A stretch of DNA of 27,614 bases from a virus: IMG/VR virus record IMGVR_UViG_3300042987_003668, positions 1-27,614 of that record. One strand, given 5' to 3'. A program made the position numbers and the translations under genes. Shown one piece after another: positions 18,706-27,614 of this stretch (position 1 is the stretch's first letter; every line of letters begins with the position of its first letter). Below the pieces are notes generated by a model. The model was not told the DNA's origin. It worked only from the letters and a program-made list of their open reading frames with translations, and ran no database searches.

Positions 18706-18713
18706 TATTTATA
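18706..18713 (-). promoter_or_regulatory. T4-type late promoter (TATAAATA) for the minus-strand gp48 operon
   Basis: An exact TATAAATA octamer lies on the minus strand within the 37-bp gap between divergent gp48 and gp4. With T4 spacing, transcription begins near 18700, ~20 nt before the gp48 ATG at 18680. It would drive gp48, 53, 27, 5, the fibre and gp25-6-7. Confidence 0.75.
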
Positions 18714-22985: not shown

Positions 22986-23171
22986 TTATCCACTTGATTG
23001 ATCTGAAGTGGATTCTTTTCCTTTGTCCTTTTTATTTGCTCTCTTACCACCAGCAACCTTGTCGGAACTTTGACAAATTAATTCTCCAACACCTACACTT
23101 GGAGAGGTTGCCATGGTATAGCCTGCATAAAGAAGCATAAGAAAAATTATTATAGAAGATATTGGTCTCAT
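22986..23171 (-). CDS. Small exported or membrane-anchored protein, unknown function
   Basis: The 61-residue protein has one N-terminal hydrophobic helix (SSIIIFLMLLYAGYTMA, ~5-21) and a highly charged, Ser/Lys-rich tail (GGKRANKKDKGKES). It is either a single-pass membrane protein or a secreted peptide. The ATG at 23171 directly follows the gp32 stop, with GAGG inside the end of gp32, so it is translated downstream of gp32, last in the operon before the terminator. I recognise no family. The hydrophobic helix plus basic tail could suit a membrane effector, but this is speculation. Confidence 0.6.
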   Translation of the reverse strand: MRPISSIIIFLMLLYAGYTMATSPSVGVGELICQSSDKVAGGKRANKKDKGKESTSDQSSG

Positions 23172-24089
23172 TTATTCCTCTGCAAGTTTTGCAAAGTAGC
23201 TGAGTGAATCATTATCATCATCAAAATCTACTTCCTCACGCTCAACCTTCTTTTGCTTTTTTGGAGATTTCTCTGCTTTTTCAGCAGCGGGCTGTTCTAC
23301 TTCATCTTCATCATCCAAATCCTCAGCCTTTCGAGCTGCTCCTGAATTACCCAATACAAATTTAAGCTTCTTGGCTAATTCTTCATATGACTTGAAATTC
23401 TTTTCATCTAGAAATGCTGCAAGTGAATGCTGACTCTTCCAAATGGCTTCAATTGCATCATCTGAATCTGCAATCTCTGATGGCTTGTCAAACTCAGACT
23501 TGTCATAGTTGCGATAGTCATCAACATTACGAATCTTTAGCTTGAAGTTTGCACCCTTCCAAAAGTCAAAGGGATTGATTGGTTCTTCATCTTCAAATTG
23601 GGGATTTGTGATATCCTTGATCTTATCGAAGATCTTCTTACCGAACTTGAACAATTTAACTTGTCCTTCATTCTCCGGATTTGCTGGGTCCTTAATAATA
23701 AGAACATTAGCAATGTAAGTAAGCTTACGCTTTTGCTTACGAGCGACTTCCTTATCCGCCTCGTTACCACTGTTCCATAGCTCAGTGTTAAGCTCTGAAA
23801 CTGGATCAGCCTTACCTAGTGTGGTAAGAGAATTTTCGATGTACCACTTACCGGTAGGACCCTTGAAACCATGAGACCAAATTCTTGCCCATGGTAGATC
23901 TTCACCTTGTGGAGGAGGAAGAAAACGAATAACCGCATAACCGTTACCAACCTTATCTACTGCTGGTTGCCAGAAGCGATCATCCTCTTGCTTGTAATCA
24001 TTTGGCTTTGAAATTTTTTCAACTTCTTTAACTAAATTTTCAAAACCGCCGCGAGACTTCTTAAGATCAGATAGTGATTTAAAAGACAT
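23172..24089 (-). CDS. 32: Single-stranded DNA-binding protein gp32
   Basis: The 305-residue protein (T4 gp32 is 301) coats ssDNA during replication and recombination. N-terminal basic patch DLKKSRGG (8-15) corresponds to the T4 cooperativity region. The core has GYAVIRFLPPPQGEDLPWAR, then WSHGFKGPTGKWYIENSLTT, as in marine T4-like homologues, and FKFGKKIFDKI...PINPFDFWKGANF. The C-terminus is strongly acidic and ends in DFDDDNDSLSYFAKL, the region that recruits partners in T4. The T4 zinc-binding Cys/His set is absent: the protein has no cysteine. Codons are visibly more GC-rich than in neighbours, consistent with high expression. AAGGAG precedes the ATG at 24089. Confidence 0.92.
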   Translation of the reverse strand: MSFKSLSDLKKSRGGFENLVKEVEKISKPNDYKQEDDRFWQPAVDKVGNGYAVIRFLPPPQGEDLPWARIWSHGFKGPTGKWYIENSLTTLGKADPVSELNTELWNSGNEADKEVARKQKRKLTYIANVLIIKDPANPENEGQVKLFKFGKKIFDKIKDITNPQFEDEEPINPFDFWKGANFKLKIRNVDDYRNYDKSEFDKPSEIADSDDAIEAIWKSQHSLAAFLDEKNFKSYEELAKKLKFVLGNSGAARKAEDLDDEDEVEQPAAEKAEKSPKKQKKVEREEVDFDDDNDSLSYFAKLAEE

Positions 24090-24117
24090 AACCTAGTACT
24101 CCTTGTATATTATTGTA

Positions 24118-24315
24118 TTAACGTAGTTTGATTTTGTTTTGCGTTACTTCATACTCTAAATAGTCATCAAAAGAATCATCATATTCAGCCTGTGAATCTA
24201 CTGGTAGATTATACACGGCTTTTCTGTATTTATCAATGAACCGTTTACCTTTTTTAGGATTTTTAATCTTTTTCTCTGTGTCCCAATTTATATTATAAGA
24301 CTTCGTGTTACTCAT
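24118..24315 (-). CDS. Small basic/acidic protein of unknown function between gp59 and gp32
   Basis: The 65-residue protein has a basic N-terminal half (KKIKNPKKGKRFIDKYRK) and an acidic middle (YDDSFDDYLEYE). No cysteine, signal or membrane segment is present. AAAGG lies upstream of the ATG at 24315; it follows the 81-residue gene by 5 nt. I recognise no family. Its place in the gp33-gp59-gp32 operon points to a role in DNA replication or late transcription. Confidence 0.6.
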   Translation of the reverse strand: MSNTKSYNINWDTEKKIKNPKKGKRFIDKYRKAVYNLPVDSQAEYDDSFDDYLEYEVTQNKIKLR

Positions 24316-24320
24316 AATAA

Positions 24321-24566
24321 TTAACCTTTAGATCCCCTTTGTTTTTTAGTCTCTGTAGCAGAAGTTTTCTTTGCAACAGAATCTTTATTTGGAACTGCTA
24401 TGAAAGGCCATTGTGCAAAAGATGTTGCCAATATCTCTTGATTTTTAGCCATTTTAACTAGAAAGTACTTGATCTCGTCTATAGTATCATTTGCTGTATT
24501 TAAATCCTCTTCTAGCTTATGATATTTTTGCTCAAGAGATGCAAGTTTCTCCTCTGATAAATTCAT
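24321..24566 (-). CDS. Small coiled-coil protein of unknown function
   Basis: The 81-residue protein begins with a heptad-patterned coiled coil (about 5-42, with LASLEQKYHKLEEDLNTAND and then TIDEIKYFLVKMA), followed by SFAQWPFIAVPN and a basic Ser/Lys tail (TETKKQRGSKG). The start at 24566 has GAGAG upstream and overlaps the end of gp59 by 35 nt, a rather long overlap but with no better internal start. Likely an oligomer and perhaps an accessory to gp59, gp32 or late transcription. No family recognised. Confidence 0.6.
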   Translation of the reverse strand: MNLSEEKLASLEQKYHKLEEDLNTANDTIDEIKYFLVKMAKNQEILATSFAQWPFIAVPNKDSVAKKTSATETKKQRGSKG

Positions 24567-25140
24567 TATATCTCTCTTTGTTTATTTTAATAAATGGATT
24601 ATACTTTTTAATTAAAAAAGATACTTCTCCCCATACTAGTTTATCATCTAATGATTTATCAAATGTTTCAACAAAACCATAAAGCCTATTTAAAATAACT
24701 AAAGTTTCCAAATTGATTTTTTTGGCTAAAAATTCTTTTAGTAGTAAAGGATGTTGATTTTGTTTGATTTGGAATATTATAGATTCATCAAATGCTTCTA
24801 AATTATGTATATTACACAAATGTTCTATATCTTGCCTAAAGGTATAAGTTAGAGACTCTATTCGCTTTTTCCATAAAAGGAATTGTTCTCTAGAGTCCTC
24901 GTTGTTGAGCGAACCCAAATCCCATTTAGGGTTAGAAACAAAATTAGAAAGAAAATAATTAATGAGTTCTTCATCTTTGTATACCTTTGCTAGTTTTTGA
25001 AACATGAATACGATATTTTTTCTACGATTGAAAGCATCTACAGATGTTCTTACTTTACCTTTGTATTTAACAATATCATAATCTGTTGTGAAGTGCATTT
25101 TCATTGCAAGGTAACATTGCCACGCCTGATAAGCATTCAT
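24532..25140 (-). CDS. 59: Helicase loader gp59
   Basis: The 202-residue protein (T4 gp59 is 217) loads the replicative helicase gp41 on forked DNA coated with gp32. Shared pattern with T4: YLAMKMHFTTDYDIVKYKGK (T4 YLMIKQHMNGKYDVIKYNWC), then NRRKNIVFMFQKLAKVYKDE, then LINYFLSNFVSNPKWDLGSL (T4 LALIFISNLVANQDAWIGDI), and LDDKLVWGEVSFLIKKYNPF near the end (T4 TDNLVWNNYSIKLKAYRKIL). It starts 1 nt after the gp33 stop and lies in the same operon as gp32, its physical partner. Confidence 0.9.
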   Translation of the reverse strand: MNAYQAWQCYLAMKMHFTTDYDIVKYKGKVRTSVDAFNRRKNIVFMFQKLAKVYKDEELINYFLSNFVSNPKWDLGSLNNEDSREQFLLWKKRIESLTYTFRQDIEHLCNIHNLEAFDESIIFQIKQNQHPLLLKEFLAKKINLETLVILNRLYGFVETFDKSLDDKLVWGEVSFLIKKYNPFIKINKERYNEFIRGETCIS

Positions 25141-25141
25141 T

Positions 25142-25387
25142 TTAGATATTTAGTTTTCCTGTTTTTTGTTTGAAATAATGTAGCTCAATTGCCTCTTTAT
25201 GTAACTTCTCTTTAAGAGACTTATTGATCATCTTCTTTACAGATTCTACATCAATATCAACTTCACTACAATAGGATACTATAGTATCCAGACAGGTTGA
25301 GCATTCCAGGTTTGCTCTTTTCTCTATATAGAGAGAAAAATCATTGGGTGTGTTAAACTTTTCTTTAATTATAGTTTCTAGTATCAT
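25142..25387 (-). CDS. 33: Late transcription coactivator gp33
   Basis: In T4, gp33 bridges RNA polymerase and the sliding clamp at late promoters. This 81-residue protein (T4 gp33 is 112) aligns by eye with the T4 C-terminal part: IEKRANLECSTCLDTIVSYC, then SEVDIDVESVKKMINKSLKE, then KLHKEAIELHYF, against T4 IEKMVEEFGMSYLEATTAFL, then EENSIPETQFAKFIPSGIIE, then KIQSEAIDENLL. The T4 order 33-59-32 is kept. The start overlaps the holin-like stop (ATGA). Its presence fits the TATAAATA promoters found in this window. Confidence 0.78.
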   Translation of the reverse strand: MILETIIKEKFNTPNDFSLYIEKRANLECSTCLDTIVSYCSEVDIDVESVKKMINKSLKEKLHKEAIELHYFKQKTGKLNI

Positions 25388-25686
25388 TTGAAAAATATAA
25401 ATGCCATCAAAAATGCGTTAATAATAAAACCAAACCCAATAGTGAGAAGGTTCAAAGTGTCTTTTAAAAGAATTGATCTAATGAAGAATGCTATCAATGC
25501 TCCCCAAATAAAAATAACTAAATCTAATGGAGGTGCTTTATCAGTTACACCTGCCATTATTGCCAACATACTAGGAATCAATGATCCATGTAGTATTAAA
25601 ATACCAAACCATGTAAAAGAGTCTGCAGTAATACGATTCAATTTAGTTTTGAAAAAATCCATGATGTTCAAATCAACTTTAATCAT
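25384..25686 (-). CDS. Three-TM membrane protein, candidate holin
   Basis: Starting at the ATG at 25686 (AAGGA upstream) the protein has 100 residues. After an amphipathic start (MIKVDLNIMDFFKTKLNRIT) three hydrophobic helices follow: FTWFGILILHGSLIPSMLAI, LDLVIFIWGALIAFFIRSI and LLTIGFGFIINAFLMAFIFF. Size and topology suit a class I holin. It begins 4 nt after the SleB-type hydrolase, supporting a lysis pair. The longer in-frame start at 25860 lies inside the hydrolase and was rejected. It is not a recognised named holin family, so the role is inferred from topology and position. Confidence 0.7.
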   Translation of the reverse strand: MIKVDLNIMDFFKTKLNRITADSFTWFGILILHGSLIPSMLAIMAGVTDKAPPLDLVIFIWGALIAFFIRSILLKDTLNLLTIGFGFIINAFLMAFIFFK

Positions 25687-25690
25687 AATA

Positions 25691-26218
25691 TTATCCTTTG
25701 TAGAAGATATGTCTTCCGATTTTGGTAATTTTTTGTTTGCCCCAGTTTGGATTGACGTAGTCTGCGTGGTAGTAGAGGGCGTCACTAAGTGACTCGAGGC
25801 GGAAACCCTCGAGTAAAACTTTTTGAGCAACAGCTTTTGATTCAGTAAAGTGAGCTTCATTGATTGGCTTTATTTTTGCTGATGATTCACAAAACCATGA
25901 GAATTGACAAATTACTTTATCGTAAAAAATATTCTTTTGATATACTACCTGGCAAATGTCAGCTGGAAATTTACCAGAGTTTGCTCTGTTCAATGTCACT
26001 TGAGCCACACCAACTTTACCTTCAAAAGGCTCAGTTGCTGCTTCATAGTATATATTTTTAGATAAACAATCTAACTGTCTTTCCCTTTCTTTCAATGTAA
26101 CTATATTTTTTTCTTCTTCTTTTTGCATATTCATTTTATACGTTATAGCGTATGAACAACAGTAAATAAACGCTATACCAAATAAAATAGACAAAAAGGA
26201 TCTGCCGATCTTTTCCAT
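25691..26218 (-). CDS. SleB-type cell wall hydrolase (Hydrolase_2), membrane-anchored, probable endolysin
   Basis: The 175-residue protein has an N-terminal hydrophobic helix (FLSILFGIAFIYCCSYAIT, 8-26) with no clear signal peptidase site, suggesting a signal anchor. The catalytic domain is of the SleB/CwlJ family: LSKNIYYEAATEPFEGKVGV (52-71; candidate catalytic Glu59), AQVTLNRANSGKFP, CQFSWFC, and the ending ALYYHADYVNP...KIGRHIFYK. The family cleaves peptidoglycan glycan strands. AGAGGAAAG precedes the ATG at 26218. It precedes the holin-like gene by 4 nt and lies within the late-transcription/replication operon. The gp5 hub is the other wall-degrading protein in the window, for entry. Confidence 0.87.
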   Translation of the reverse strand: MEKIGRSFLSILFGIAFIYCCSYAITYKMNMQKEEEKNIVTLKERERQLDCLSKNIYYEAATEPFEGKVGVAQVTLNRANSGKFPADICQVVYQKNIFYDKVICQFSWFCESSAKIKPINEAHFTESKAVAQKVLLEGFRLESLSDALYYHADYVNPNWGKQKITKIGRHIFYKG

Positions 26219-26249
26219 ATCTTTCCTCTTTTTAATAGATTGACTGGGG

Positions 26250-26654
26250 TTAAGACTTGCTGTCTATAATTCTTTGTCTTAAAGATGATGAACTAAATGA
26301 GTGTTTTCTCTTGTTGAAATAGAGCTCTATGTGAGGCATATCATCACCAGTAAACTTTATAGTTTTATACTCCTCGCCCACTATTCTAACATCAATGGGA
26401 AGTGTTTGCAATAATAGTAACAAATCTTCCTCAGTAGAATATACAATAGTTTCGTCAACGTATTTGCAAGCACCTACTTGAATTTGTCTCTCTAGAATAG
26501 ATTGAATTGGTTTATTCTTAGATGGACGATCAATTGATGGATCTATTTGAATTCCAACTATCAGATACTCACATTGTTTCTTTGCCTCTTGCAACATTGT
26601 CACATGACCAGCATGAAACAAATCAAATGTTCCACATGTAAAGCCTACTCTCAT
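26250..26654 (-). CDS. TagD-like cytidylyltransferase
   Basis: The 134-residue protein belongs to the glycerol-3-phosphate / ethanolamine-phosphate cytidylyltransferase family, which makes CDP-linked alcohols from CTP. Motifs: GTFDLFHAGH (HxGH nucleotide-binding, 8-17), ILERQIQVGACKYVDETIVY, and HSFSSSSLRQRI (the Ser/Thr-x-LRxRI motif). I prefer the ATG at 26654, which has GGAG 6-9 nt upstream and the canonical family N-terminus MRVGFTCGTFDLFHAGH. The longer start at 26708 would run through a terminator-like hairpin. In phage it may modify host envelope precursors or make a phage glycan; substrate cannot be told from sequence. Confidence 0.85.
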   Translation of the reverse strand: MRVGFTCGTFDLFHAGHVTMLQEAKKQCEYLIVGIQIDPSIDRPSKNKPIQSILERQIQVGACKYVDETIVYSTEEDLLLLLQTLPIDVRIVGEEYKTIKFTGDDMPHIELYFNKRKHSFSSSSLRQRIIDSKS

Positions 26655-26674
26655 TATGTCTCCATATAAAGAAA

Positions 26675-26706
26675 GAAGATTGCTTGGGTAATAAGGTGCA
26701 ATCTTC
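26675..26706 (-). terminator. Hairpin with U-rich tail at the 3' end of the tmRNA unit
   Basis: On the minus strand GAAGATTGC and GCAATCTTC form a perfect 9-bp stem around a 14-nt loop, followed by TTTCTTTATA. It could terminate or delimit the tmRNA transcript before the cytidylyltransferase gene. It partly overlaps, and competes with, a shorter hairpin at 26702-26721 (UCUUCA/UGAAGA) that would belong to the mature coding RNA. Confidence 0.55.
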
Positions 26707-26722
26707 AAAACCCCATGAAGAA

Positions 26723-26764
26723 TTAAGCTGCTAGCTTAAGATCCTCATAATATGCATCATTTGC
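26723..26764 (-). other. tmRNA proteolysis tag reading frame (ANDAYYEDLKLAA-stop)
   Basis: GCA at 26762-26764 is the probable resume codon, giving a 13-residue tag ending at TAA 26723-26725. The A-N-D start and L-A-A end match the proteobacterial tag pattern (E. coli ANDENYALAA). L-A-A ends are recognised by ClpXP-type proteases in characterised systems. The resume codon could be a few codons earlier in the same frame (GCA at 26777-26779), but the A-N-D motif favours this one. Confidence 0.8.
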
Positions 26765-26851
26765 ATTTATTAATTTTGCTCTGCTTACGGCAGTCGCCTA
26801 TCGTGCTGTCCACTCCAATACTCTTTGTCCCGTCGATACCATGTCTGGCCC

Positions 26852-26943
26852 ATTAGGAAGTAGTTTGACAGAAGATCGATCCAATTGGCTGTTAATCGCT
26901 TCTGCTTCAGGTTGCCAAACCTTTTAACTAACAAACTACTTTC
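26852..26943 (-). other. Intervening segment of the permuted pre-tmRNA, foldable into a long hairpin
   Basis: The 92-nt segment between the encoded CCA end and the 5' G of the coding piece has complementary ends: AAGTAGTTTG (26932-26941, minus strand) and CAAACTACTT (26858-26867), 10 bp. This places the two processing sites side by side. It is expected to be removed during maturation. Confidence 0.7.
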
Positions 26944-27017
26944 TGGTGGACCAGGCGGGAGTCGAACCCGCGTCCGCAACACTTTTCTCTTTGCTTCAAA
27001 CAGCAATTCTTTTAAAA

Positions 27018-27326
27018 CTATTCGCTACAAATTCGCTCTCGTTGAATAGAGCCATCATAACTTTGTGTCTCACGCCACTGTGAGCAGTATGGTTGACGCT
27101 CAACGTAGACTGGAGGTTGATACTGTGGTTGTACTACAACCGGAGGTGAATTTCTAGAATTTAGAATGACTGCAGTCGTTGCAGCTACAGCAACAGCTGG
27201 AATCCAGGGGTTCCAGTAACCGCGACTATATCCACCATGGTGGTGTCCATGACCATGGTAGCCACCAGCAAAAGCACTCGATACAAATGCAAGGGCAATC
27301 ACACATGCAAGAACATATTTACGCAT
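27018..27326 (-). CDS. Secreted Gly/His-rich small protein
   Basis: The ATG at 27326 has a strong AAGGAGAT Shine-Dalgarno; 102 residues. A textbook signal peptide (MRKYVLACVIALAFVSSAFA, cut before GG) is followed by a Gly/His-rich region (GGYHGHGHHHGGYSRGYW), a hydrophobic alanine-rich stretch (IPAVAVAATTAVIL), a Pro/Val-rich part and a C-terminal CSQWRETQSYDGSIQRERIC with two cysteines that could form a disulphide. The ending resembles small envelope-associated bacterial proteins, so host origin is possible. The His cluster may bind metal ions. It is the first gene after a consensus sigma70 promoter and precedes the tmRNA. No function assigned; the in-frame start at 27368 is upstream of the Shine-Dalgarno and overlaps the promoter. 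Confidence 0.8.
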   Translation of the reverse strand: MRKYVLACVIALAFVSSAFAGGYHGHGHHHGGYSRGYWNPWIPAVAVAATTAVILNSRNSPPVVVQPQYQPPVYVERQPYCSQWRETQSYDGSIQRERICSE

Positions 27327-27356
27327 TTTAAATCTCCTTTTTAAGGTCACATTGAT

Positions 27357-27385
27357 ATTGTAACACAAAAATATGCCTATGTCAA
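27357..27385 (-). promoter_or_regulatory. Consensus sigma70 promoter
   Basis: On the minus strand TTGACA (27380-27385), a 17-bp spacer and TACAAT (27357-27362) match the host housekeeping promoter at 11 of 12 positions with ideal spacing. Transcription would start near 27350 and cover the secreted protein and tmRNA. This contrasts with the TATAAATA late promoters elsewhere and suggests expression by unmodified host polymerase early in infection. Confidence 0.82.
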
Positions 27386-27614
27386 TGGGTTTTTTCGTAG
27401 ATATCTCGATATTTTAACAGTTCTTTAACGAAATTGTCTCTTTTTTCGATAAAAACCTGTGGTTTTTCGTCATCTACAGCTATCATCACTACTAACTTAT
27501 TTATTGGTACAGAGGTTAGTTCCTCATACATTATAGCATAGGCAGCACATTGCATAAAATAGTTTGCAATCATACTTTTTTCCTTCAACTTATTTGAAGT
27601 TTTAAAATCGATTA
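27382..27614 (-). CDS. PD-(D/E)XK exonuclease, C-terminal part (start beyond window)
   Basis: The frame is open to the right edge. The first visible residues read IDFKTSNKLKEKS, where D-F-K-T-S is the (D/E)-x-K catalytic motif of RecB/Cas4-like nucleases. The following NYFMQCAAYAIMYEELTSVP then INKLVVMIAVDDEKPQVF is the family's usual helix-strand end, including the Q-x-x-x-Y motif (Q-C-A-A-Y). Marine T4-like phages often carry such a nuclease for host or phage DNA processing. A TTG codon at 27588 is not the start, because homologous sequence continues upstream of it. The TGA stop (27382-27384) overlaps the -35 box of the next unit. Confidence 0.8.
   Translation of the reverse strand, partial: IDFKTSNKLKEKSMIANYFMQCAAYAIMYEELTSVPINKLVVMIAVDDEKPQVFIEKRDNFVKELLKYRDIYEKTH

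Follow-up and report, generated by a model that had tools for sequence, protein, structure and literature searches.

Phage-encoded two-piece tmRNAs

tmRNA is a bacterial RNA that frees stalled ribosomes. Buchholz et al. (2022) described two-piece tmRNAs adjoining the late-transcription coactivator in phages Melnitz and Mosig, reported 53 such RNAs in public phage genomes with frequent occurrence in marine phages, and proposed amino-acid recycling as the role of the Melnitz tmRNA (PMC9004378). The window analysed here, a whole virus record of 27,614 bases, carries a further example of this described gene type, and genes of the same kind occupy the same place in many related phages. As in the window, the permuted tmRNA of Methylophilales phage Melnitz and of Pelagibacter phages Mosig and HTVC008M lies between an exonuclease gene and gp33, gp59 and gp32 on the same strand; the HTVC008M copy (NC_020484.1 145161-145370; L271; tag ANFNEYALAA) is unannotated. 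The tags of all three isolates differ from that of the window, in which, unlike in these isolates, a nucleotidyltransferase gene and a cell wall hydrolase gene lie between tmRNA and gp33. The Melnitz tmRNA is immediately followed by a glutamine riboswitch (RF01739; L253 1886-1934); a search of 23000-27614 of the window found none. Stenotrophomonas phages of T4-like size, about 160 kb (Menderavirus, for example Yut2), also encode a permuted tmRNA, annotated SsrA in GenBank, that sits within a tRNA cluster rather than the exonuclease–gp33 cluster and has the tag VAANDDSYTVRIAA. A preliminary description of the window, made from its letters, had called such a gene unusual in a T4-like genome; this does not hold, as Melnitz and Mosig were published in 2022 and the gene is clade-wide at one locus. 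Our analysis adds the breadth of this syntenic locus, its beta-type copies and unannotated copies in reference phages.

A complete permuted tmRNA gene in the window

The minus strand of the window holds a complete circularly permuted (two-piece) tmRNA gene, for which ARAGORN gives the tag ANDAYYEDLKLAA. The Rfam model RF04321 (tmRNA_permuted) matches 27005-26723 over its full length (model positions 1-213 of 213) with an E value of 6e-25 and a score of 127.5 bits (cut-off 47), and together with the permuted call by ARAGORN this bears out the identity first proposed. An identical copy is present in contig 3300049842_000157 from a second assembly (100% over 7,362 bp), so the gene is no assembly accident. 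Its parts are as follows, all on the minus strand:

26632-27036, minus: permuted tmRNA (ssrA) gene (ARAGORN; RF04321 at 26723-27005, 127.5 bits)
26983-27005, minus: 5′ part of the acceptor piece, pairing with the mRNA-like piece (P2-like inter-piece helix; RF04321 alignment)
26944-26982, minus: acceptor piece (3′ tRNA-like half), comprising T arm, acceptor 3′ strand and ACCA
26955-26971, minus: T arm, within the acceptor piece
26948-26954, minus: acceptor 3′ strand, within the acceptor piece
26944-26947, minus: encoded ACCA, within the acceptor piece; CCA ends at 26944
26852-26943, minus: intervening segment of 92 nt, predicted to be excised; 10-bp pairing between its ends, GAAAGUAGUUUG and CAAACUACUUCC
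26825-26851, minus: 5′ end of the mRNA-like piece, with acceptor 5′ strand and D-loop-like GGTATCGACGGG
26845-26851, minus: acceptor 5′ strand, GGGCCAG
26840-26829, minus: GGTATCGACGGG signature, D-loop-like
26782-26802, minus: conserved core GATAGGCGACTGCCGTAAGCA, PK1 region, ahead of the resume codon (38 IMG/VR records contain it without a mismatch)
26723-26764, minus: tag frame GCA AAT GAT GCA TAT TAT GAG GAT CTT AAG CTA GCA GCT TAA, ANDAYYEDLKLAA*
26675-26706, minus: post-tag hairpin, 9-bp stem GAAGAUUGC/GCAAUCUUC and loop ACCUUAUUACCCAA, as in beta-type relatives

The acceptor half precedes the mRNA-like half in the gene, as the preliminary description had it, with the T arm ahead of the mRNA-like start at 26851 and the intervening segment between the halves. 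The acceptor stem that it noted reads GGGCCAG/CUGGUCC, pairs at 7 of 7 positions, includes the alanine identity pair G3·U70 and is accompanied by an encoded CCA; the signature and tag were likewise recovered. Both predicted processing points fit the sequence, a putative 5′ end of the mRNA-like piece at GGGCCAG (26851) and a putative CCA end at 26944, and the spurious 73-residue open reading frame that had been warned of is present (26785-27006, minus). The 10-bp helix closing the intervening segment is absent from that earlier description. The tag frame is open, with a resume codon, a stop codon and a degradation-type C terminus that reads LKLAA, the commoner phage tag end being ALAA.

A conserved position among T4-like phages

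The tmRNA gene is flanked upstream by a small Gly/His-rich open reading frame and an exonuclease gene, and downstream by genes for a nucleotidyltransferase, a cell wall hydrolase, an unnamed protein, gp33, gp59 and gp32:

27382-27614, minus: C-terminal part of an exonuclease, truncated where the contig ends; its counterpart by synteny in HTVC008M, Mosig and Melnitz is the PD-(D/E)XK exonuclease
27357-27385, minus: sigma70-like promoter with a TG extension, TTGACA-17-TACAAT, preceding the small open reading frame and tmRNA (a match to consensus only)
27018-27326, minus: small open reading frame between promoter and tmRNA, 102 aa, Gly/His-rich, signal-peptide-like start (no Pfam or PHROG match)
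26250-26654, minus: cytidylyltransferase-like nucleotidyltransferase (PF01467, phrog_7878)
25691-26218, minus: cell wall hydrolase (PF07486)
25142-25387, minus: late-transcription coactivator gp33 (PF16805)
24532-25140, minus: gp59 helicase loader (PF08993/PF08994)
23172-24089, minus: gp32 single-strand binding protein (PF08804)

These T4-type core genes, gp33, gp59 and gp32, and a gp6-like baseplate wedge gene confirm the T4-like context given in the preliminary description. By the baseplate wedge protein the closest isolates are HTVC008M, Melnitz and Mosig, at about 40%; judged from its genes, the window is a T4-like phage of this group, within a Kyanoviridae-like lineage. The second-assembly contig extends the locus past the exonuclease to an endolysin gene and phoH, and nearly all tmRNA-bearing related records have the order phoH-(endolysin)-exonuclease-tmRNA-(variable genes)-gp33-gp59-gp32 on one strand, as do Melnitz, Mosig and HTVC008M. 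Among 40 environmental loci fetched by gp32 similarity only and containing the exonuclease and gp33/gp59, several of them near-duplicate records, 32 have an ARAGORN tmRNA inside the interval; RF04321 scores above its cut-off in 27 of 50 gp32-related records, which are mostly fragmentary. The two-piece tmRNA is thereby a common, positionally conserved accessory gene of a T4-like lineage and no curiosity of a few marine isolates.

The surroundings of the gene also suggest early expression, since the strong sigma70-like promoter lies upstream and the late-promoter motif TATAAATA, sought near the tmRNA gene, is absent there and present before structural genes. The motif occurs on the minus strand at 2885-2892 and 18706-18713, placing it 27-34 and 26-33 bases, respectively, before the start of a structural gene, with a total in the whole window that is not above chance.

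Stems, segment ends and tags look maintained

Related viral records and phage genomes yielded 62 distinct permuted tmRNA sequences for comparison. Their acceptor and T stems form 26 distinct combinations that are 100% paired, compared with 79.6% when partner strands are shuffled, and G3-U70 is kept in all 26; because ARAGORN favours paired stems, these figures carry some ascertainment bias. That selection does not extend to the helix of the intervening segment: where this segment is at least 40 nt long (36 genes, 35 distinct end pairs), its ends have a mean duplex energy of -13.1 kcal/mol, compared with -5.4 for shuffled partners. The post-tag hairpin is common to relatives, with a conserved loop and a changing stem, and 31 of the 36 distinct ARAGORN tags in the 62 genes end in LAA. 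One of the exceptions is an ARAGORN miscall, the real tag being ANFNQAYALAA, which ends in ALAA. Because the stems pair, the segment ends pair, the hairpin is shared and the tags end in LAA, the gene looks maintained rather than decaying. The many natural variants in tag, intervening segment and type offer material for testing what a phage gains from its own ribosome rescue.

Several copies depart from the common form. In L092, L197, L209, L264, L102 and their relatives the intervening segment spans just 3-30 nt, and several of these genes have no encoded CCA and would therefore need a CCA-adding enzyme. In record L108 (942-1673; the record of L041) the RF04321 match extends across 637 nt and has another partial tmRNA-like match alongside, representing either a large intervening segment or a duplicated half. 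Close relatives L004-L006 (for example L004 4509-4883) have the tag ANDNSYRMVA without the usual LAA end, which may be a weaker degradation signal. Viral contig L199 encodes a permuted tmRNA (937-1444, minus) whose tag, at about 30 residues, is unusually long and ends in AELA, and the gp33-gp32 cluster is absent from the sequenced stretch examined.

Alpha- and beta-type copies share one locus

Older Rfam subfamily models separate the window from its closest isolates. The window scores 47.7 bits with RF01849 (alpha; cut-off 50) and 76.4 bits, over the full length, with RF01850 (beta; cut-off 84); the copy is thus divergent, falling below the RF01850 gathering score, and the betaproteobacterial two-piece tmRNA is its best-fitting older subfamily and has the same type of post-tag hairpin loop, although the window's copy is phage-encoded. 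Most of the window's closest phage relatives reach 100-148 bits with RF01850, above the cut-off. By contrast, the alpha model is better for Melnitz (alpha/beta 106.7/25), Mosig (67.6/50.7) and HTVC008M (83.8/56). The statement in the preliminary description that permuted tmRNAs are established for alphaproteobacteria and marine cyanobacteria was incomplete, leaving out the Betaproteobacteria, whose model fits the window better than the alpha model, and these scores give no support to the SAR11 link that it suggested for the window's copy.

A tree of 40 phages built from gp59+gp32 places the window in a clade of 11 (support 99/99) that is entirely beta-type, with L196 as its nearest member, and the alpha/beta label changes at least 4 times across the tree, six rows being too close to call. 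As read from these model scores, the type of tmRNA at this one conserved phage locus, alpha or beta, differs between branches, a modestly new evolutionary point. In-place replacement is one reading of the label pattern, and divergence beyond what both models capture is another. The fuller form of the first, in which a large T4-like lineage with several host groups has kept one ancestral tmRNA locus while the RNA is replaced in place between alpha and beta types at host changes, with clade-specific tags, is possible but in our view somewhat doubtful; if replacement did occur, the locus would be an exchangeable cassette for translation rescue and a record of host switches. Neither search pattern pointed to a bacterial donor: the 21-base core pattern had no match in bacterial genome contigs and the T-arm/acceptor pattern hit only bacterial genomes of standard type (Lachnospiraceae, Saprospiraceae, Geobacteraceae and the like); no plasmid matched the window's own tmRNA. 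Melnitz infects OM43 yet carries an alpha-type copy, and tmRNA type is for this reason a poor host marker. Since the locus is common to the whole group, the published reading that treats the alpha-type Melnitz tmRNA as sufficient sign of a recent host switch from SAR11 to OM43 needs qualification.

Proposed function and alternatives

We consider it very probable that the gene is an intact permuted ssrA, a long-standing resident of the replication and late-coactivator cluster in T4-like (Kyanoviridae-like) phages, whose two RNAs act in ribosome rescue and tagging through host factors. The elements of this explanation documented at sequence level are the full set of two-piece tmRNA parts, covarying stems, an open tag frame with a conserved Leu-Ala-Ala end and a conserved position. 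By analogy with established tmRNA biology, host-type RNA polymerase would transcribe the gene early in infection, and tRNA-processing enzymes (RNase P and 3′ enzymes) would remove the helix-closed intervening segment to leave two pieces that remain base-paired. Host AlaRS would then charge the RNA through G3-U70, and host SmpB and EF-Tu would bring it to ribosomes stalled on broken messages; the SmpB would have to come from the host, since no gene for it was found in 37 phage records, of which three are complete isolates from this group. The ANDAYYEDLKLAA tag would direct the released chain to ClpXP-type proteases, and the phage may benefit by keeping ribosomes and amino acids available during destruction of host transcripts.

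The gene might instead be kept mainly for its tag, with the phage re-tagging host or phage proteins for proteolysis and so freeing amino acids or removing specific proteins, rather than for rescue as such. The amino-acid recycling put forward for Melnitz (PMC9004378) is in line with this idea, as is the strong difference in tags between phage clades, with 36 distinct ARAGORN tags in 62 genes and the LAA end kept; however, tag-internal drift is expected in ordinary tmRNAs too, some relatives (L004-L006) have altered ends, and the target of such tagging is not known. We regard a primary role for the tag as unlikely. Far less probable is a decoy role, in which the phage RNA would compete for SmpB with the tmRNA of the host and so shut off its trans-translation: the missing phage SmpB would suit it, and work cited in PMC11915505 describes inhibition of the host tmRNA in E. 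coli by a tagless tmRNA from phage DS6A, but a decoy would need neither an intact, conserved tag frame and stop codon nor the resume region and G3-U70 that are all present here, and the intact tag above all speaks against it. Phages often integrate at host ssrA (PMC9004378), which could in principle have left a dead host-derived fragment through imprecise excision at an ssrA attachment site. Such a relic is highly improbable, because the gene is complete with covarying stems, its operon position is conserved across divergent phages and no PF00589 integrase was found in 21 phage records, three complete isolates among them. Rescue and tagging through host factors thus remains our preferred reading.

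Further phage and plasmid copies

Unannotated permuted tmRNAs were also identified in Stenotrophomonas phage QDWS359 (L252 1471-1888), Pseudomonas phage PaMx31 (Samunavirus; L276 777-1197) and Xanthomonas jumbo phage XacN1 (L277 776-1196). Large plasmids of Cupriavidus (L273 473-804) and Pandoraea (L274 473-807) carry permuted tmRNAs as well, the Pandoraea plasmid tag being GKNDAFYYEAA according to ARAGORN.
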